From: an uncultured Oscillospiraceae bacterium
GTDB taxonomy: Bacteria; Bacillota; Clostridia; Oscillospirales; Oscillospiraceae
Direction: 5' to 3'
Length of the DNA: 64,000 nt
Assembly: GCA_947627285.1 (NCBI GenBank)
Contig: CANQVL010000003.1
Location: 62,001 to 126,000, forward strand
Positions 19,343-38,312 of the stretch are shown one piece after another. Position 1 is the first letter of the stretch. Every line of letters starts with the position of its first letter. The position numbers were made by a program, and so were the translations under genes. Under the pieces are notes generated by a model. It was not told the DNA's origin and did not search any database. It saw only the letters and a program-made list of their open reading frames with translations.

Positions 19343-19482
19343 AGTTTACATAAATATTGGCTGATAACCTATATGTTGTGATTACAAAAGGCTGGTTCGT
19401 CTAAATATAGCATAAATATGGGGCTTTTACGGTGCTGAATCGGCGTCAGGTTTACGCGGTTAACATAATACTGTTAACATAA
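19343..19482 (-). repeat. XerD half-site-like repeats upstream of spoIIM-xerD
   Basis: On the minus strand: TTATGTAAACT at 19343-19353 (exact match to the XerD arm of B. subtilis dif), TTATGTTAACC at 19458-19468 and TTATGTTAACA at 19472-19482. The last two lie within an 11-bp direct repeat GTTAACATAAT (+ strand 19459-19469 and 19473-19483). A further partial copy, GTTTACG, lies at 19450. The TTATG end of each copy faces the downstream genes, as in the larger array at 27969-28102. Confidence 0.75.
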
Positions 19483-19625
19483 TTTATGTGCACAATTCAC
19501 AAAATTTCGATTTTCTATTGATTATTTATTCCAGTTGTATTATTATATAAGAGCTTTCGGATTTTGGAAAATCACACGTATTATTTTAAATCCCCCGGCA
19601 TAGTCTTATGCGGGTGAGATTTGAA

Positions 19626-20240
19626 ATGAACAAAAGAAAGCTTGTGTCAGGTCCCGGTCCACGGGCGTGGCTTCCGGCGTTTGTGCTGTTGGCTGTATCC
19701 TTCCTGCTCGGTTCCGCGGCTGGCTTTGTCATGTCCTCCGGCTTTGCCGGCGGGGACTCCGCCGGCGCGTTTTTGAAGGGGTATCTTTTATCCCTTGAGG
19801 GCGCGGTGAAGTCGTCGGGTACGGCGCGCCTTTTTTGGGAGACCGGCGCCTATCATGTCGCCGTATTCCTTCTGGGCTTTACGGTCTTCGGAGCCGCCGC
19901 CATTCCCGCTGTATCCGCGCTGAGGGGCTTTACGCTGACCTTCGCCATGGCGACGCTTGTCAGGCTCTATTCCTTCAGCGGCGCGGTCGCGGGGCTTGTG
20001 CTTTTAGGACTTACGGCGGTTGTCTCGGTGCCGGTCTTTTTTGTCCTGGCTGTGGACGCCATGTGGTGCTCGGCTCAGCTTGCCAGGACCGGGCTTACCG
20101 GCGCGCCGCCGGCGGGACCCGGTGTTTATTCAAAAGCGTATTTCATTAAATTCCTGTCAGCGGCGGTTTTGCTGATCCTCATATCCGCGGGGGAGAGGGC
20201 CCTTATACTTTCGGGGCTTCTTGAGCTTCCGGTTTTTTGA
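19626..20240 (+). CDS. spoIIM: Stage II sporulation protein M-like membrane protein
   Basis: 204 residues with about five hydrophobic segments and the SpoIIM/DUF95-type pattern (AFVLLAVSFLLGSAAGFVMS, then a loop and FLLGFTVFGAAAIPAVSALRGF). In sporulation SpoIIM works with SpoIID and SpoIIP in the engulfment machine at the septum. Placement directly before xerD matches the B. subtilis region spoIIM...ripX(xerD), which supports the call. ATG 19626 is preferred: GGTGAG at 19612-19617 is a good SD, whereas the ATG at 19608 has none. Confidence 0.78.
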   Translation: MNKRKLVSGPGPRAWLPAFVLLAVSFLLGSAAGFVMSSGFAGGDSAGAFLKGYLLSLEGAVKSSGTARLFWETGAYHVAVFLLGFTVFGAAAIPAVSALRGFTLTFAMATLVRLYSFSGAVAGLVLLGLTAVVSVPVFFVLAVDAMWCSAQLARTGLTGAPPAGPGVYSKAYFIKFLSAAVLLILISAGERALILSGLLELPVF

Positions 20241-20265
20241 TCCAAACACGAAGGAAGGTGGCCAT

Positions 20266-21156
20266 GTGCCCGAAGAAAACTATATAAACGGCTTTGAAAC
20301 GTATCTCCGCAATGAAAGGCACGTGTCGTCCAACACCCTCCTCTCGTATATGAGGGATGTCCACCAATTCGCGGATTATCTCACGCGTTATTTAAGGCTC
20401 AGCCTCACTGATGTGAATCAGGACACCGTCAGGGGATATATAGCCTGGCTCCGGAGCGAGGGGAAGTCCAACGCCACCATCGCCAGGTGCCTCGCCTCCA
20501 TCAAGTGCCTTTACACGTATCTTGTCCGTCAGGGATCTGTGGACGAGAATCCCGTTTTTGATATATCCGTGGAGAGAGCGGAAAAAAAGCTGCCGCAGAT
20601 ACTCACCAGCGCCGAGGTTGAGCTCTTGCTCGACCAGCCCAAGTGCACCGACATGAAGGGCTACCGCGACAGGGCAATGCTGGAGCTGCTTTACGCCACA
20701 GGCATACGGGTGAGCGAGCTCATCAGCCTTGACGTTGACGACGTAAAGCTCTCCGCCGGTATCATCAAGTGCTCAACCCACGGCAAGGAGCGCTATATCC
20801 CCATGTACACCACCGCCATACGCGCTGTCTCCGACTATATCAACCTTGTCCGGGGTCAGATGGTGGCGTCGCCCACAGAGCAGGCGCTGTTTGTCAACGT
20901 AAACGGACAGCGCATGACCCGCCAGGGCTTTTGGAAGGTTCTGAAGCACTATCAGGAGACAGCCAAGATAGATAAGGACATAACTCCGCACACCCTCCGC
21001 CACTCCTTCGCGGCGCACCTTCTGGAAAACGGCGCCGATTTGCGCTCCATCCAGGAGATGCTGGGTCATGCGGACATCTCCTCCACCCAGGTCTACGCGC
21101 AGCTTGTCAAGAAGCAGCTGAAGGACGTATACAACAAGGCCCACCCACGGGCATAA
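20266..21156 (+). CDS. xerD: Tyrosine recombinase XerD
   Basis: 296 residues, the standard XerD length. Catalytic residues: R148 (ATGIRVSEL), HTLRHSFAAHL (HxxR), H268 (LGHADISS) and nucleophile Y277 (QVYAQL). R148 is at the same position as in E. coli XerD. XerD with XerC resolves chromosome dimers at dif, and in B. subtilis it also unloads SMC near the terminus. Start set at GTG 20266 with SD GGAAGGTG 5-6 nt upstream; a TTG further out (20221) lies inside spoIIM. The neighbouring XerD half-site-like repeats (19343-19482) suggest it may bind its own upstream region. Confidence 0.93.
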   Translation: MPEENYINGFETYLRNERHVSSNTLLSYMRDVHQFADYLTRYLRLSLTDVNQDTVRGYIAWLRSEGKSNATIARCLASIKCLYTYLVRQGSVDENPVFDISVERAEKKLPQILTSAEVELLLDQPKCTDMKGYRDRAMLELLYATGIRVSELISLDVDDVKLSAGIIKCSTHGKERYIPMYTTAIRAVSDYINLVRGQMVASPTEQALFVNVNGQRMTRQGFWKVLKHYQETAKIDKDITPHTLRHSFAAHLLENGADLRSIQEMLGHADISSTQVYAQLVKKQLKDVYNKAHPRA

Positions 21157-24864: not shown

Positions 24865-25380
24865 TCAATTTCCCATTGTGTCAGCAGCAGCGTTTACCGG
24901 TGAGCTTTCAGCAAAAAGCTTTTCCGCGATCTGCCGGACCTGCCAGATTGGAATATCATATAACGCGTCTGTACTCTTATTCAGCTTATTCTTAAAACCG
25001 TTTATTATCCTGTAAGCCGCCTTAGTGTGCCCGTTTGCGCCGCCTGAGCTGTCGGCTTCACGGATAAACTGGGGTATTAAATTACGCCGGACGGAGTAAA
25101 TAAGCTCCACAAGCTTCGCGCGATATTCAAGCTCATCAGAAGGGAGCGCTCCAAACTCTTTAAGATCCCTTGCGTGCTGTGCCTCATGCTTCAGAAGGGA
25201 AACGCTGAAATCCTCGCTGGTAAGATCATAGGAGGACTTCACACAGTTGATAACTCCGTTATCATCGGTCCATCCGCCGGTACTGATTTTGCCGAAGGAA
25301 AGGTACTCCATCGCGCCGTGAAGATCGCCTTTGAGTATCAAACCGCAGTATACGGTTTCGTCGTATCCCATACCCTTCAT
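24865..25380 (-). CDS. Small zincin-like protein coupled to a tyrosine recombinase
   Basis: 171 residues, family not recognised. LLKHEAQHARDL carries an HExxH zinc-protease motif (H65-E66-x-x-H69), and DELEYRAKLVEL about 15 residues later could give the glutamate ligand of a gluzincin. No signal peptide or membrane segment, so a cytoplasmic metalloprotease is suggested. Its ATG overlaps the stop of the recombinase gene (ATGA, 25377-25380), implying coupled translation. The N-terminal third has two Cys (C12, C46) and the C-terminus is low in motifs. Confidence 0.65.
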   Translation of the reverse strand: MKGMGYDETVYCGLILKGDLHGAMEYLSFGKISTGGWTDDNGVINCVKSSYDLTSEDFSVSLLKHEAQHARDLKEFGALPSDELEYRAKLVELIYSVRRNLIPQFIREADSSGGANGHTKAAYRIINGFKNKLNKSTDALYDIPIWQVRQIAEKLFAESSPVNAAADTMGN

Positions 25381-26423
25381 TCCTCGCCGCCGTCCTCAGG
25401 GGTATCTTCATTCCTGTTAGTGGATTTTGACGGCTTTTTGTGACCGGACAGGGGAGAGAGCATGGCGGCTTCGCGCAGGCCCTCGTTTTCCACATGGGTG
25501 TAGATCTCCGTGGTGTTCAGGTGCTCATGGCCCAGAAGCTCCTGGAGCGTGCGGACATCAACGCCGGAGTGGAGCATGAGCGTCGCCGCCGTGTGGCGGA
25601 GCTTGTGGGCTGAGTATTTCGTCTCGTCGATCCCGGCCTCTCCCAGGTGCTTCTTCACCAGCGCATGGACGGTGGACTTTGATATCCTCTCTCTGCGCGA
25701 GGAGAGGAAAAGAGCGTTTTTATTTAGGGGCGCAACGGTTTTGCGCACCTGGAGATAGTCGTTTATCGCCTCGGCGACGGCGTCGTTGATGTATACCACA
25801 CGCTCCTTGTTGCCCTTGCCCAGCACCCTCAGATGGTCGGCGCGCACATCGCTGAGATTTAGCCCCACAAGCTCCGAAATACGAAGCCCGCAGTTGAGGA
25901 AGATCGTCAGGATACAGTAATCTCTCTCCCTGTTTTTTCCGTCAACACTGTCCAGGAGCCGCTCGGACTCGGAAAGGCTCAGATACCTGGGCAGGGATTT
26001 CATGATTTTCGGCGAGTCCAGGTCCTGTATTGGATTTGACTCAATTTGATGTGTCTTCAGCGTGAGATATTTATAAAAGGAGCGTATGGTAGATACCTTG
26101 CGCGCCCGGGAAGCGGAGCTTAGCCCAAACTCCGGGTCGCTGGCGTTCCGATTTTTCACCCGTTCCCGGGACATATAGCCCAGATAGTCGTAGACGTCGG
26201 ATAAGTTAACCGACTTTACAAATTCCAGGTCCACATCGGCTATGGAGATACTGTCAAGGGGAGTGTCTCTGGGCAAGCTGTTTTTTATAAGCTTCATGTA
26301 CCTGAAAAAGGTCCGCAGGTCAAGATAGTATTCGTCCACGGTTTTGCGTGAATGTCCGACGATATTCTCGTGGTAATTGAGAAAGCTCCTGATGATCTCA
26401 GGCGCCTCGGTCCGGTAGTCCAT
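25377..26423 (-). CDS. XerC/XerD-type tyrosine recombinase
   Basis: 348 residues from ATG 26423, which has the SD AAGGAG 8 nt upstream; the open frame continues to 26636 but would run through the promoter. N-terminal SAM-like domain (SFLNYHENIVGHSRKTVDEYYLDLRTFFRYM), and catalytic residues in CGLRISELVGL (Arg), HKLRHTAATLML (HxxR), LGHEHLNTTEIYTHV (His, Tyr). Longer than classical XerC (about 300) through an extended core-binding domain and a charged C-terminal tail, a form common in Clostridia. With xerD in the window, this may be the XerC partner. Confidence 0.85.
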   Translation of the reverse strand: MDYRTEAPEIIRSFLNYHENIVGHSRKTVDEYYLDLRTFFRYMKLIKNSLPRDTPLDSISIADVDLEFVKSVNLSDVYDYLGYMSRERVKNRNASDPEFGLSSASRARKVSTIRSFYKYLTLKTHQIESNPIQDLDSPKIMKSLPRYLSLSESERLLDSVDGKNRERDYCILTIFLNCGLRISELVGLNLSDVRADHLRVLGKGNKERVVYINDAVAEAINDYLQVRKTVAPLNKNALFLSSRRERISKSTVHALVKKHLGEAGIDETKYSAHKLRHTAATLMLHSGVDVRTLQELLGHEHLNTTEIYTHVENEGLREAAMLSPLSGHKKPSKSTNRNEDTPEDGGEE

Positions 26424-26472
26424 TTTATGATCTCCTTTGTAAGCCGGGGAAGTGGCTGAAAGCCCAAAAACC

Positions 26473-26535
26473 ATTATATCACACCGCTCCGGAAAAGTCC
26501 ACACATAATTGAACAAAATAAAAATTTTGTTCAAT
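26473..26535 (-). promoter_or_regulatory. radA-recombinase intergenic palindrome and promoter
   Basis: A perfect inverted repeat, ATTGAACAAAAT (26508-26519) and ATTTTGTTCAAT (26524-26535), lies between radA and the recombinase gene; a TATAAT on the minus strand at 26473-26478 follows it. The AT-rich stem could end radA transcription or act as an operator; the -35 (TGGACT, 26496-26501) is weak. Confidence 0.55.
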
Positions 26536-26584
26536 GTGGGGGAGGGAAAAACGAGTGGAAAAGGCCATATTCGTTTTTTGGACC

Positions 26585-27952
26585 CTATTTTGCCAGGATG
26601 AGCTCCATGGCGTCTCTTATGCTTGACGCCTCCCAAAGCCTGAGACCCGCGGGCGCGGTGAGCTTTCCCTTGTGCTGTTTCGGTATGATTGCGCTTTTGA
26701 AGCCGTGGCGGGAAATTTCTGAAAGCCTCTGTTCAAGCTGTGTAACCTGGCGCAGCTCACCGGTCAAGCCGACCTCGCCGATCGCCACTAAATCGTCAGG
26801 TATCGGTATGTCCCGATAGCTTGACGCCATTGCCAGCGTTGCCGCCAGATCCGCCGCCGGCTCATTTATGTAAAGTCCGCCTATCACGTTCACATAGCTG
26901 TCGGCTCCGCCGACTCTCAGCCCGCCGCGCTTTTCCAGAACGGCCATCAAGAGCATCGCCCGGTTGTAGTCAAGCCCGTTTGACGTGCGCCTCGGGACGT
27001 TGAAGCTGGACGGCGTCAAAAGCGCCTGGATCTCCGCCAGAACCGGTCTGGAGCCCTCCATGATACAGGCAACGCACGTGCCCGGCGTATTTTTGGGCCT
27101 TCCGGAGAGTAGCAGCTCCGAGGGATTCGGCACCTCCACAAGCCCGCGCTGAGCCATCTCAAATACGCCGATCTCATTGGTTGAGCCAAATCTGTTTTTC
27201 GCGGCACGCAATATACGGTAGTTGGCTGACTGCTCACCCTCAAAATACAGTACACAGTCCACCATATGCTCCAATACCTTGGGTCCCGCGATGGCGCCCT
27301 CCTTGTTGACGTGGCCTATCACAAATACGGTAATCCCGGAGCTTTTGGCAAGCTGCATGAGCGTCATGGTGCAATCCTTGACCTGTCCCACGCTTCCGGG
27401 AGCGCTTGTGAGGTCGGGCGAATACAATGTCTGGATGGAGTCGATTATCAGGATCTCCGGCGCTGATTCGTCCACCGCCTCAAGAATATCGGTGATATTT
27501 GTCTCGGACAGCACCAGCAAATTCGGGCTGTTCACGCCCAGCCGCTGCGCGCGCATTTTAAGTTGACGCTCCGATTCCTCGCCGGTCACATATAAAATGC
27601 GGTATCTTTCGCCGATATGCTGGCAGATCTGAAGCAAAAGCGTGGATTTTCCTATACCCGGCGCGCCGCCAACAAGCACAAGCGAGCCCCTGACGCCCCC
27701 ACCGCCGAGCACCCTGTCCAGCTCGCCGAGCCCGGTGTCAAACCGAAGCTCCTCAGTGACATCCACCTCCTTCAGCGTCACTGGGGCCTTTTTCGGCAGT
27801 CTCCCGGAGCTTACGGTGGGCTTTCGGCTGTCCTTCTTTTCCACCGCCTGCTCAACAAGAGAGTTCCACGCCCCGCATGCGGCGCACTGTCCGCTCCACT
27901 TGGGAAACTCGTTTCCGCACTCGGTACAGAAATAGGTGGTTTTAGCCTTCAT
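26585..27952 (-). CDS. radA: DNA repair protein RadA
   Basis: 455 residues. RecA-like ATPase that promotes branch migration in recombination and repair. Domains: N-terminal zinc finger (CTECG...CAACG), Walker A GGAPGIGKST, Walker B ILIIDSIQT, the RadA-specific KNRFG motif, and a C-terminal Lon-protease-like domain. SD GGAGG lies 12 nt from the ATG. Its upstream region (27969-28102) consists almost wholly of XerD half-site-like repeats. Confidence 0.96.
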   Translation of the reverse strand: MKAKTTYFCTECGNEFPKWSGQCAACGAWNSLVEQAVEKKDSRKPTVSSGRLPKKAPVTLKEVDVTEELRFDTGLGELDRVLGGGGVRGSLVLVGGAPGIGKSTLLLQICQHIGERYRILYVTGEESERQLKMRAQRLGVNSPNLLVLSETNITDILEAVDESAPEILIIDSIQTLYSPDLTSAPGSVGQVKDCTMTLMQLAKSSGITVFVIGHVNKEGAIAGPKVLEHMVDCVLYFEGEQSANYRILRAAKNRFGSTNEIGVFEMAQRGLVEVPNPSELLLSGRPKNTPGTCVACIMEGSRPVLAEIQALLTPSSFNVPRRTSNGLDYNRAMLLMAVLEKRGGLRVGGADSYVNVIGGLYINEPAADLAATLAMASSYRDIPIPDDLVAIGEVGLTGELRQVTQLEQRLSEISRHGFKSAIIPKQHKGKLTAPAGLRLWEASSIRDAMELILAK

Positions 27953-27968
27953 TCTTTAGTGCCTCCAG

Positions 27969-28102
27969 TTATGTAAACTTGTATATTATGTAAATTCATA
28001 AGATTATGTAAACTTTATGATATTACGTAAACCAAACCGTTATGTAAACTTATGTATAATGTTATGTTAACTTATCGTGAAATCCAAAGATTATGTTAAC
28101 TT
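27969..28102 (+). repeat. Tandem array of seven XerD half-site-like repeats
   Basis: 11-mers on the + strand begin at 27969 TTATGTAAACT, 27986 TTATGTAAATT, 28004 TTATGTAAACT, 28023 TTACGTAAACC, 28040 TTATGTAAACT, 28062 TTATGTTAACT and 28091 TTATGTTAACT. Start-to-start spacings are 17, 18, 19, 17, 22 and 29 bp. TTATGTAAACT is the XerD-binding arm of Firmicutes dif. The first two copies are separated by exactly 6 bp (TGTATA), the length of a dif centre, but lie in direct rather than inverted order. The array fills the gap between the cwlD stop and the radA start; the last copy overlaps the cwlD stop codon. Confidence 0.9.
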
Positions 28103-28806
28103 ATACTTTCAAGGTATCCTCCGACGATCATCGCCGCCAGCTTGAGCTGATACCTTGGGTCCTCAAGCCTTTTTGCCTCCACCGCGTTGGATACAAATCC
28201 GCACTCCACAAGTACCGCGGGGCATGTGACATGGTTCATTATATAGATGCCCTCCCCTATCAGCGCGGCGTTTCTTTTGTCCTCCCCTGCCGCCTGACGC
28301 AGAAGCCCCTGAAGGCTCTCCGCAAGCTCCCGGCTGCCCGGGGTTGGAGCGTACAGCACCTGACAGCCGTGGGGTCCGGCGGTGGTATATTTATTCTGGT
28401 GGATGCTTATGAGCACCGCGTTTTCCGTGGAATTAATGAACTGCGTCCTGTTCTTTGTGTCCCAGACCTTTTTTGCGCGTATGGTAGACGCGTCCTCGGG
28501 ATATTGAAGCTCCTCGCTGTCCCTTGTCATCTCCGCCGTGACTCCGAACAGCGCCGCCAGCGTCCGGCACCTTTCGGCGATCTCCATATTTATGGCGCTT
28601 TCGCTTGTACCGGTGACAGATACGGCTCCGCCGTCCGCCCCGCCGTGTCCGGGGTCAAGGACAAGCGTCGCTATGTTCCTGCCCGGTACGCGCACCCTCG
28701 CCGCCGTTCCGGGGCGCAGGCTAAGACAAATATTCACCGCCGCTCCAGCCACAAGACAAACCGCGGCGGCGGCACAGACGAGGCGTATGGCAAAGGCTTT
28801 ATTCAT
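28096..28806 (-). CDS. cwlD: N-acetylmuramoyl-L-alanine amidase, CwlD-like
   Basis: 236 residues: an N-terminal membrane helix or signal (residues ~8-28) and an Amidase_3 domain with zinc ligands in LVLDPGHGGADGG (His), ESAINMEIAERC (Glu) and SIHQN (His), and catalytic Glu in VLVECGFVSN. CwlD cleaves the amide bond of cortex peptidoglycan to begin muramic-delta-lactam formation in spores. The 236-residue length matches CwlD of B. subtilis (about 237). Confidence 0.85.
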   Translation of the reverse strand: MNKAFAIRLVCAAAAVCLVAGAAVNICLSLRPGTAARVRVPGRNIATLVLDPGHGGADGGAVSVTGTSESAINMEIAERCRTLAALFGVTAEMTRDSEELQYPEDASTIRAKKVWDTKNRTQFINSTENAVLISIHQNKYTTAGPHGCQVLYAPTPGSRELAESLQGLLRQAAGEDKRNAALIGEGIYIMNHVTCPAVLVECGFVSNAVEAKRLEDPRYQLKLAAMIVGGYLESIS

Positions 28807-36338: not shown

Positions 36339-38312
36339 ATGAAAGATTACATCCTCCTTGTTCCGGTTCTCCTGCCCTTTTTCTCCGCCTTACCAATATA
36401 CATCGTGGGTAGAAGGTCTAAGAGGACGCGCGACATACTCGCCGAAACAGCTGGCTGTGCGGAGTTTGCCGTGTGTGCCCTTCTCCTTGCCCTTGCCCTC
36501 GGCGGTAATGAGCTCACCCTCGCGGTCCCCAACGTGTGCGGACGCGGCATATACCTGAAGCTTGACTGCTTCCGCGCCATTTACGCCCTGATCGCCGCCC
36601 TCATGTGGATGATGACCACCATTTTCTCGCGGGAGTACCTCGCCCATTACAGGAACCGGAACAGGTATTACCTTTTCACACTCCTCACCTGCGGCGCAAC
36701 CGTGGGAGTGCTCCTCTCCAACGACCTTTTCACCACCTTCATCTTCTTTGAGATAATGTCCTTCACAAGCTACGTGATGGTCGTCCAGGACGAAAAGCCC
36801 GGAGCCATGCGCGCGGGAGAGACATATATCGCCGTTGCGGTCATAGGCGGCATGGTGATGCTCATGGGTCTTTTACTGCTGGAAAACCGCCTGGGGACGC
36901 TGTATTTTGACGAGCTCCACACGGAGGCCGCAGCTATGGCCGACGTCTCTGAGCTGTACCTCCCCGGCGCGCTGATCCTATTCGGCTTCGGCGCCAAGGC
37001 GGGTATGTTTCCCCTGCATATATGGCTCCCAAAGGCGCACCCCGTGGCCCCCGCCCCCGCCTCCGCGCTGTTGTCGGGGATACTCACAAAGACCGGAGTA
37101 TTTGGTATCATAGTCCTCACAAGCGGCGTCTTTCTCCATGACGCCCTCTGGGGCAATATCATTCTCGCCCTGGGCGTCGTCACAATGGTCCTGGGCGCGG
37201 TCCTGGCGGTGTTCTCCGTTGACCTGAAGCGCACCCTGGCCTGCTCATCCATGTCCCAGATAGGCTTTATCCTGATAGGCGTAGGAATGCAGGCGCTCCT
37301 GGGACACCACAACACCCTTGCCCTCTGGGGAACCGGACTTCACATGGTAAACCACTCCATGCTGAAGCTTGTCCTCTTTATGTGCGCCGGCGTCGTCTAT
37401 ATGAACCTCCACAAGCTGGACCTCAACGACATACGCGGCTGGGGCAGAAACAAGCCGTTCCTCAATTTCTGCTTCCTTATGGGAGCTCTGGGAATTACCG
37501 GCGTACCCCTTTGGAACGGCTACGTCAGTAAGGCACTGCTCCACGAGTCCATCGTAGAGTATATTGCGCTCGCCCCGTCCCCCGGGGTTTACCGCGCCGT
37601 GGAGTGGCTCTTCCTCATCTCCGGCGGCCTGACGGCGGCTTATATGGCAAAGCTCTATATTGCCATCTTCGTTGAAAAGCCCGTAAAGCCATTTGAGGAG
37701 CCCAAAAAGCGGTATATCAGCCCGATGTCCGCGCTCGCCATCGGCATACCGGCCCTGTGCCTGCCCGTGATGGGTATGCTCCCCTCGCCCTTGATGGAGA
37801 ACATCGCAAGGCTCATGCAGGGCTTCATGGATTGGGGATCCCCGGACGCGACAGTAAAATGGTTCTCCCTTACAAACCTCCGGGGCGCCGCTATATCTCT
37901 TGCCATTGGCGCCGCCGTGTATTTCCTCGTCGTCAGGACTCTCCTCATGCGCAGGGGCGAAAGCGGAGTAAAATATTATGTAAACCGCTGGCCAGCCCGC
38001 CTCGACATGGAGGAGATTCTGTACCGCCCGCTGATTCAAAGGCTCCTCCCCTTCCTCGGCGCGCTGGTGTGCCGCGTGCTTGACAACCTCACAGATTGGA
38101 CCGTGGCGCTTTTGAACATTACAGTCCTTCGCCGCAGGCCCATACCGCCCCGCAGTGACGCGGACTTTGAGCCCGGGGATTTTACCCCCCAGATCAAGCG
38201 CAGCTACACCCTCCAGCGTATCTCCGGCAGTATATCCTACTCCCTCCTCCTCTTCGGCGCCGGCTTCTGCGCCGCGATGGTGTACCTGATAATCATACTC
38301 ATATCGAAATGA
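36339..38312 (+). CDS. Antiporter-like subunit 4 with C-terminal extension (MrpD/NuoL type)
   Basis: 657 residues; the first ~480 are the antiporter core with Glu138 (FIFFEIMSFTSYV), Lys in GFGAKAGMFPLHIWLPKAHPVAP and Lys in LLSGILTKTGVFGII. The extra ~170 residues hold two or three helices and a charged loop, similar to the NuoL lateral-helix region or the longer MbhH/HyfB-type subunits. Last gene of the operon; a terminator follows. Confidence 0.88.
   Translation: MKDYILLVPVLLPFFSALPIYIVGRRSKRTRDILAETAGCAEFAVCALLLALALGGNELTLAVPNVCGRGIYLKLDCFRAIYALIAALMWMMTTIFSREYLAHYRNRNRYYLFTLLTCGATVGVLLSNDLFTTFIFFEIMSFTSYVMVVQDEKPGAMRAGETYIAVAVIGGMVMLMGLLLLENRLGTLYFDELHTEAAAMADVSELYLPGALILFGFGAKAGMFPLHIWLPKAHPVAPAPASALLSGILTKTGVFGIIVLTSGVFLHDALWGNIILALGVVTMVLGAVLAVFSVDLKRTLACSSMSQIGFILIGVGMQALLGHHNTLALWGTGLHMVNHSMLKLVLFMCAGVVYMNLHKLDLNDIRGWGRNKPFLNFCFLMGALGITGVPLWNGYVSKALLHESIVEYIALAPSPGVYRAVEWLFLISGGLTAAYMAKLYIAIFVEKPVKPFEEPKKRYISPMSALAIGIPALCLPVMGMLPSPLMENIARLMQGFMDWGSPDATVKWFSLTNLRGAAISLAIGAAVYFLVVRTLLMRRGESGVKYYVNRWPARLDMEEILYRPLIQRLLPFLGALVCRVLDNLTDWTVALLNITVLRRRPIPPRSDADFEPGDFTPQIKRSYTLQRISGSISYSLLLFGAGFCAAMVYLIIILISK

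Follow-up and report, generated by a model that had tools for sequence, protein, structure and literature searches.

Polarised XerD-arm half-sites around a probable replication terminus in a genus of Oscillospiraceae

Unloading of SMC by XerD at the terminus of Bacillus subtilis was reportedly described by Karaboja et al. in 2021, and to our knowledge terminus marking and the removal of SMC there have been worked out in few species. In the Tus-Ter and RTP-Ter traps, polar sites lie in mirror orientation on either side of the terminus. The available parts of PMC12322038 and PMC8242196 cite XerD of B. subtilis as a sequence-specific SMC unloader near the terminus. The half-sites described here would share with that activity a putative action of XerD near the terminus and differ from it in forming tandem arrays with mirror polarity, a comparison made by the role of XerD and not by site layout. 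With Tus-Ter and RTP-Ter they share polar, mirror-oriented sites flanking the terminus, but the word here is an XerD arm and the likeness is one of site layout alone. As in dif, the site of XerCD, the XerD arm word occurs with its A/T/C variants near a GC-skew shift, whereas the array is many-copy, tandem and nearly unidirectional, with no inverted XerC arm 6-8 bp away. The XerS/difSL systems, as set out in the available parts of PMC2731167 and PMC3025954, are similar in that a recombination-type sequence adjoins the recombinase gene, as our element at xerD does; they differ in that the enzyme here is of the XerD type with a nearby XerC-like gene, and the half-sites are direct, not inverted.

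The window analysed is a stretch of 64,000 nucleotides (G000:C3:62001-126000) from a draft genome of 2.81 Mb in 95 contigs. An 11-mer scan of the window placed seven XerD-arm half-sites at 27969..28101 on the plus strand (starts at 27969, 27986, 28004, 28023, 28040, 28062 and 28091), and they fill the 143-bp intergenic gap between cwlD and radA (27953..28095). The successive copies have 0, 1, 0, 2, 0, 1 and 1 mismatches to TTATGTAAACT, their consensus is TTAYGTWAAY, and their start-to-start spacings are 17, 18, 19, 17, 22 and 29; the seven 11-mers, three of them exact, which a sequence-only reading of this DNA had listed with the same spacings, were all recovered in plus orientation. An extra, weaker copy with two mismatches overlaps the array at 28050. 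Each of the seven copies reads TTA..AA along the plus strand, and both neighbouring genes are on the minus strand, namely radA (sms; 26585..27952; TIGR00416, 610 bits, cut-off 403) and a gene for a cwlD-like amidase (28096..28806; Amidase_3; TIGR02883 at 156 bits, under the cut-off of 221.6). The last half-site shares bases with the cwlD stop codon, and the first stops, by eye, just short of the radA ribosome-binding site. The array's own 150 bp (25% GC) give seven matches, compared with none in 4767 of 5000 dinucleotide shuffles and a maximum of three, and the window as a whole has 19 matches with at most two mismatches against a shuffle mean of 6.5 and a shuffle maximum of 14 (100 shuffles). 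Chance or a simple tandem repeat was rejected as the origin of the array on account of the shuffles and the differing spacers. TTATGTWAACT has 14 copies in the genome (2.81 Mb) and its reversed control 0, TTAYGTWAAC has 39 copies genome-wide and its control 4, and several of the scattered single copies are intragenic. A half-site cluster is also found in a metH-like gene (by eye) of the window genome (L016:1771-1895), where it reads YVN in frame, and the metH-like gene of several genus members carries similar clusters. The N-terminal repeated VNIT/VDIT of a SpoIVFB-like protein (by eye) of G117 (L053:1191-1877) is the half-site in frame, and the array there seems to lengthen the coding sequence.

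RadA was found in 27 of the 34 genus genomes at E <= 1e-100. The main clade comprises 21 genomes with RadA at least 77% identical (the locus of G116 is split across two contigs), and all 21 of its cwlD-radA gaps contain between 2 and 7 half-sites, oriented in the main direction. The sequence-only reading had named absence from close relatives with the same radA-cwlD order as the outcome that would speak against it, and within the main clade the presence at 21 of 21 loci disposes of that objection. Five early-branching members (RadA 68-72%) have a gap of 33-50 bp with half-sites in none of the five, and at one further genus radA locus the contig ends. In total the 21 gaps contain 83 forward and 4 reversed half-sites, and 33 of 62 spacings measure 16-19 bp. 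The spacers are mostly unrelated between species and align, by eye, among close pairs only, so it is the half-site word that is kept. G000 and G115 look far apart, but the spacers of G117-G130 and of G114-G120 align by eye, and unusually fast spacer turnover is not claimed. Directly after radA lies the gene for a divergent XerC-like tyrosine recombinase, named XerL here (25377..26636, minus strand; TIGR02224, 229 bits, under the cut-off of 335). A relative of XerL is present in 19 of 26 other radA loci scanned, two of these 19 without an array. XerL was rejected as the cause of the arrays, being present also in G103 and G104, both of which have no array.

Three-copy arrays were seen in 2 of 101 sampled family genomes, both of this genus; the 99 sampled genomes that belong to other genera have none. 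Taken with their absence from the five early-branching members, this makes the arrays a lineage feature rather than a family rule and indicates that they are not needed for core Xer function. Two-copy clusters occur in at least 26 of the 34 genus genomes, with no reversed-pattern match among the matches listed. The scan of the genome_contigs collection returned at least 117 stretches, which among the matches listed carry mostly Lachnospiraceae or Oscillospiraceae titles, and in a Lachnospiraceae-type family sample two-copy clusters were present in 29 of 298 genomes and the reversed control in 4. Half-sites outnumber reversed controls in 13 of 15 array-bearing genomes searched and are fewer in L101 Paenibacillus and L139 Butyrivibrio; clusters L128, L132 and L141 are plain tandem repeats with near-identical spacers. 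Two Lachnospiraceae arrays (L092:5782-5835 and L113:3953-4006) lie at the radA 3' end, and radA thus adjoins arrays in two families. Lachnospiraceae arrays in three further loci from three genomes (L083:6126-6227, L137:4331-4432 and L148:2661-2762) have one spacing pattern (13, 21, 14, 21, 22; mirrored in L083) and diverged spacers. SepF was matched by three proteins of the flanking-protein tally given below, and it is a guess that these are the neighbours of the L083, L137 and L148 arrays. In Paenibacillus gorillae (L101:1728-1855), four tandem units adjoin a gene that is XerD-like by eye, and each unit has, by eye, inverted arms around a 6-bp centre, resembling four consecutive dif sites.

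A landing site for Xer-exploiting elements had been among the options offered earlier for the array. Some transposases bind tandem repeats at the ends of their elements, and the half-sites could on that ground be the ends or landing sites of mobile elements, as with IS21-type repeats or Xer-using integrative elements. Such an origin would place a transposase beside the repeats, but the neighbours here are cwlD and radA, two housekeeping genes between which the array is kept across 21 species, and the spacers are mostly unrelated. Around arrays elsewhere, 110 flanking proteins gave 139 Pfam families, mostly housekeeping, and no transposase family is among the 25 listed; this tally covers loci L075-L154 with L155-L191 left out, 9 loci having been dropped by eye (other taxa or plain tandem repeats) and 14 Oscillospiraceae-type loci set aside. 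From the conserved cwlD-radA position and the families listed, mobile-element ends are disfavoured and seem hardly credible to us.

The identity of the word with the XerD arm of dif, which had been proposed from the letters alone, is borne out by the dif table in the available part of PMC2731167, where XerD arms start with TTATGTTAA, TTATGTAAA or TTATGTCAA and vary among A, T and C as the copies of the array do. The array has the XerD arm TTATGTNAA of the XerCD dif site, and the earlier remark that an XerC arm is missing also stands, for no inverted XerC arm was seen 6-8 bp away at the array or at xerD. Where dif would be a single copy at the skew shift, the region here is near a skew change and its half-sites are many. 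In the window's own genome nothing lies within three mismatches of a Firmicutes dif. A stricter XerC-arm pattern matched none of the 34 genus genomes, and a relaxed pattern matched 28 of 34 with no common dif-like sequence, reversed controls matching too. One look-alike common to G106 and G107 was rejected, since it lies inside a long ORF that is glycosyltransferase-like by eye. Across the family the relaxed pattern matches 40 of 61 genomes, and reversed controls also score. Matches in other genera that look dif-like by eye were noted in G010, G092 and contig 29 of G084, and near-palindromic sequences of the form XerD arm - 6 bp - XerD arm occur in two other genera (G070:C1:326410-326437 and G003:C23:44879-44906). 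The inverted-arm scan of the window gave its top scores within the two half-site clusters and nothing convincing from xerD to radA, and with the patterns used the genus yielded no canonical dif.

In E. coli XerD, R220 and Q221 at the TRQ position presumably contact the arm. The XerD of the window (20221..21156, plus strand; TIGR02225, 340 bits, over the cut-off of 330) retains this TRQ motif in alignments to 1a0p and 5dcf. Its start is overlapped by a spoIIM-like gene (19608..20240, plus strand; TIGR02831 weak, 25.7 bits, cut-off 100.2), and upstream of spoIIM-xerD lies a three-copy cluster (19343-19482) on which the sequence-only reading was silent. The cluster consists of a tandem half-site pair with 14-bp spacing (19458..19482, minus strand), found in the window scan and in the genus and family alignments, and a distal half-site 115 bp from the pair (19343..19353, minus strand; window scan). 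Near the pair are a conserved flank (19491..19503, minus strand), which is TTTGTGAATTGTG here and approximately TTTGTNAATTATG in its family form (family alignment of 22 rows, genus alignment of 21 rows), and a putative sigma-A-like promoter before spoIIM-xerD, TTGATT-17-TATTAT by eye (19518..19546, plus strand), largely conserved in the genus alignment. Read antisense to xerD, the genus alignment, whose 21 loci were picked for holding the pair, gives approximately TTTGTGAATTATG, 8 variable bases, TTATGTWAAC, 4 bases and TTATGTWAAC, with the promoter-like sequence adjoining. For other genera we used the best 28 of 50 matching genomes and the loose half-site TTAYGTNAAN. The pair TTATGTNAAN-N4-TTATGTNAAN, at exactly 14 bp, stands upstream of xerD in 20 of these 28 loci, which is the conserved site adjoining a recombinase gene that characterises a gene-linked dif; at least one half-site is upstream of xerD in 25 of 28, and a third, distal site 112-115 bp further is present in 8 of 28. 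In L322 and L326 the pair is at most 170 bp from xerD. The xerD-linked element may be a candidate non-canonical dif (flank plus adjacent half-site) or an operator, and because it is without an inverted XerC arm it is not classed as dif.

The second of these possibilities extends to the array. XerD, alone or with XerL, could control transcription of spoIIM-xerD and radA-xerL, and autoregulation of both operons is a rival reading to be taken seriously: in the window, half-sites lie just upstream of both operons, and the family-widespread pair at xerD adjoins a conserved promoter-like sequence. However, there are clusters at unrelated genes too, those for GDPD and an M23 peptidase, and further ones at metH, spoIVFB, folD- and thrC-like genes (by eye), and G103 and G104 have XerL without an array. 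Operator arrays are, in our estimate, unlikely to account for the whole set, and the orientation of the clusters, considered below, also bears on them.

Several features place this region near the end of replication. In two one-contig genomes of the family (G098 and G078), the position of xerD is 1.227 of 2.19 Mb and 2.084 of 4.31 Mb. There the sampled GC skew of both genomes passes from mostly positive to mostly negative; the samples that break this pattern are those at 0.33 and 1.43 Mb (G098) and at 1.10, 2.23 and 4.00 Mb (G078). In the genus draft contigs a shift in GC skew and a switch in gene strand lie close to the array, in keeping with the earlier suggestion that it be sought near the GC-skew minimum. 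On the window contig the skew stays close to zero left of xerD instead of being positive and reaches about -0.09 to the right of radA, and in G129 the sign changes about 40 kb beyond xerD. In 7 of 8 contigs, plus-strand genes take up a larger share of gene length to the left of xerD than to its right, as a terminus predicts; the exception is G119, with 8 left-side genes, and the right side of G130 has only 4 genes. The terminus location that SMC unloading of the B. subtilis type calls for is thus seen in skew and gene strand within the genus drafts. According to the available part of PMC3025954, xerD genes are mostly near the origin, which makes an xerD at the terminus unusual. Because the pair is widespread upstream of xerD in the family and xerD is at the skew shift in both one-contig genomes, the window is probably the replication terminus.

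The half-sites are polarised about the xerD-radA interval, a feature also absent from the sequence-only reading. On five long genus contigs, the exact word TTATGT[ATC]AAC flips orientation between xerD and radA, with 9-21 sites per contig compared with 0-2 for five scrambled words. The sense of the polarity was set on these five, and eight contigs picked for length were used in all (G130 covers 60 of 124 kb and G122 100 of 127 kb). Within 100 kb, 14 of 14 sites left of xerD are minus, as are 24 of 24 just upstream of xerD, and the right side has 43 plus and 4 minus sites; taken separately, the three contigs added later gave 2/2 left, 9/9 upstream of xerD and 13/14 right. When the sites at xerD and radA are left out, 29 of 32 exact sites agree (up to 100 kb, 8 contigs). 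By cluster majority, 8 of 8 agree on the left and 11 of 13 on the right, the remaining two being evenly mixed, and when apparently shared sites are collapsed by position, by hand, with the two mixed ones excluded, about 14 loci are left and all agree. A prediction fixed beforehand was borne out on the three additional contigs by 4 of the 5 clusters away from xerD and radA, and the fifth was mixed; of these contigs, the xerD/radA orientation of G119 and the radA-array/xerD-pair orientation of G130 were visible before the prediction. A single plus-strand half-site of the window (37976..37986) falls within an ORF on the same strand (36339-38312, by eye antiporter-subunit-like), and a plus-oriented in-gene half-site +17 to +22 kb from xerD is present on 5 of 8 genus contigs. 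On the right side beyond 100 kb the agreement fails, with 3 plus and 6 minus sites, all on G115 and mainly in-gene copies (metH and spoIVFA by eye); the sole left site beyond 100 kb agrees. On other contigs, among the matches listed, clusters of G113 and G117 agree and two others do not (a G125 cluster by a threonine-synthase-like gene and the metH copies of G116, orientation being judged from radA). In two sampled one-contig genomes of other genera, sites are few and polarity is absent (4 of 8 and 4 of 6 in agreement).

Words with one mismatch are without polarity (59 versus 64, including TTATGTNAAT at 5 versus 0), as are two-mismatch words (877 versus 870 on the 8 contigs). Among 200 permuted words the mean is 4.1 sites and the largest 29, and the eight words with at least 12 sites are at most 0.67 one-sided. 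Clusters are sense to their genes in 10 cases and antisense in 10, with one between opposed genes, and transcription therefore does not explain the polarity. An RNA-level element or gene orientation behind it is disfavoured by this equal split and by the unpolarised one-mismatch words. The same equality speaks against the operator explanation, as the clusters obey the polarity instead of the direction of their genes. Regulation of radA, another option of the sequence-only reading, is weakened in its purely regulatory form because the half-sites elsewhere share one polarity with sense equal to antisense.

The protein that uses the word may also be considered. XerD probably binds the half-sites, and we hold this with good confidence from the sequence evidence. 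Some protein other than XerD that binds DNA, be it a regulator or a nucleoid protein with no relation to Xer, could use the word instead: the assignment to XerD comes from sequence likeness, and the distribution is patchy, taking in the main clade of the genus and 29 of the 298 Lachnospiraceae-type genomes mentioned above. We regard this as distinctly improbable, since the match to the XerD arm extends to the variants tolerated in the available part of the dif table, sites with G at position 7 are absent from the 8 contigs, and the half-sites are linked to xerD. A further possibility concerns the replication fork. XerD-bound half-sites could admit forks to the terminus and slow leaving ones as Tus-Ter and RTP-Ter do, and up to 100 kb the mirror-symmetric polarity about the terminus is indeed the layout of a trap. 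Stopping of forks would be a hypothetical activity of XerD, however, and the layout suits an SMC or FtsK signal equally, so a polar fork trap appears very improbable.

The best explanation, which we favour by a modest degree, is a terminus-flanking, direction-dependent set of XerD half-sites that would most probably serve SMC unloading or terminus marking. Of the three options raised by the sequence-only reading, the one with the most support is an array for terminus marking or SMC unloading, with XerD as its presumed binder. That the half-sites mark the terminus seems rather likely, and that SMC unloading specifically is the job of the array is tentative. Each half-site would hold one XerD subunit, and on either replication arm nearly all half-sites near the terminus turn their TTATG (cleavage-side) end toward it. 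The machines that travel in from the origin, namely SMC complexes, FtsK and replication forks, would with this polarity each meet the same face of bound XerD. Rather than recombine, XerD kept around the terminus could then signal SMC to unload or to stop, depending on direction, and the array near the terminus would strengthen the SMC-unloading effect. An FtsK signal or a polar fork trap would have an identical layout, and autoregulation at xerD may possibly be the older role. Among the papers listed by literature searches, including one with the word TTATGTAAAC, none describes such arrays in its title or the beginning of its abstract.

A more speculative and rather doubtful extension is that XerD is a direction-sensing terminus protein here, and that mirror-polarised half-sites and arrays, reaching roughly 100 kb to either side of xerD-radA, form a one-way barrier, a new kind of terminus trap that arose from an xerD-linked non-canonical dif of direct half-sites. 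If this is true, the barrier would act on machines that travel from origin to terminus, namely SMC, FtsK or the replication fork. The xerD-linked element offers a candidate dif for a genus in which two dif patterns gave nothing convincing, and the tandem polarised half-sites predict a direction-dependent action of XerD at the terminus.
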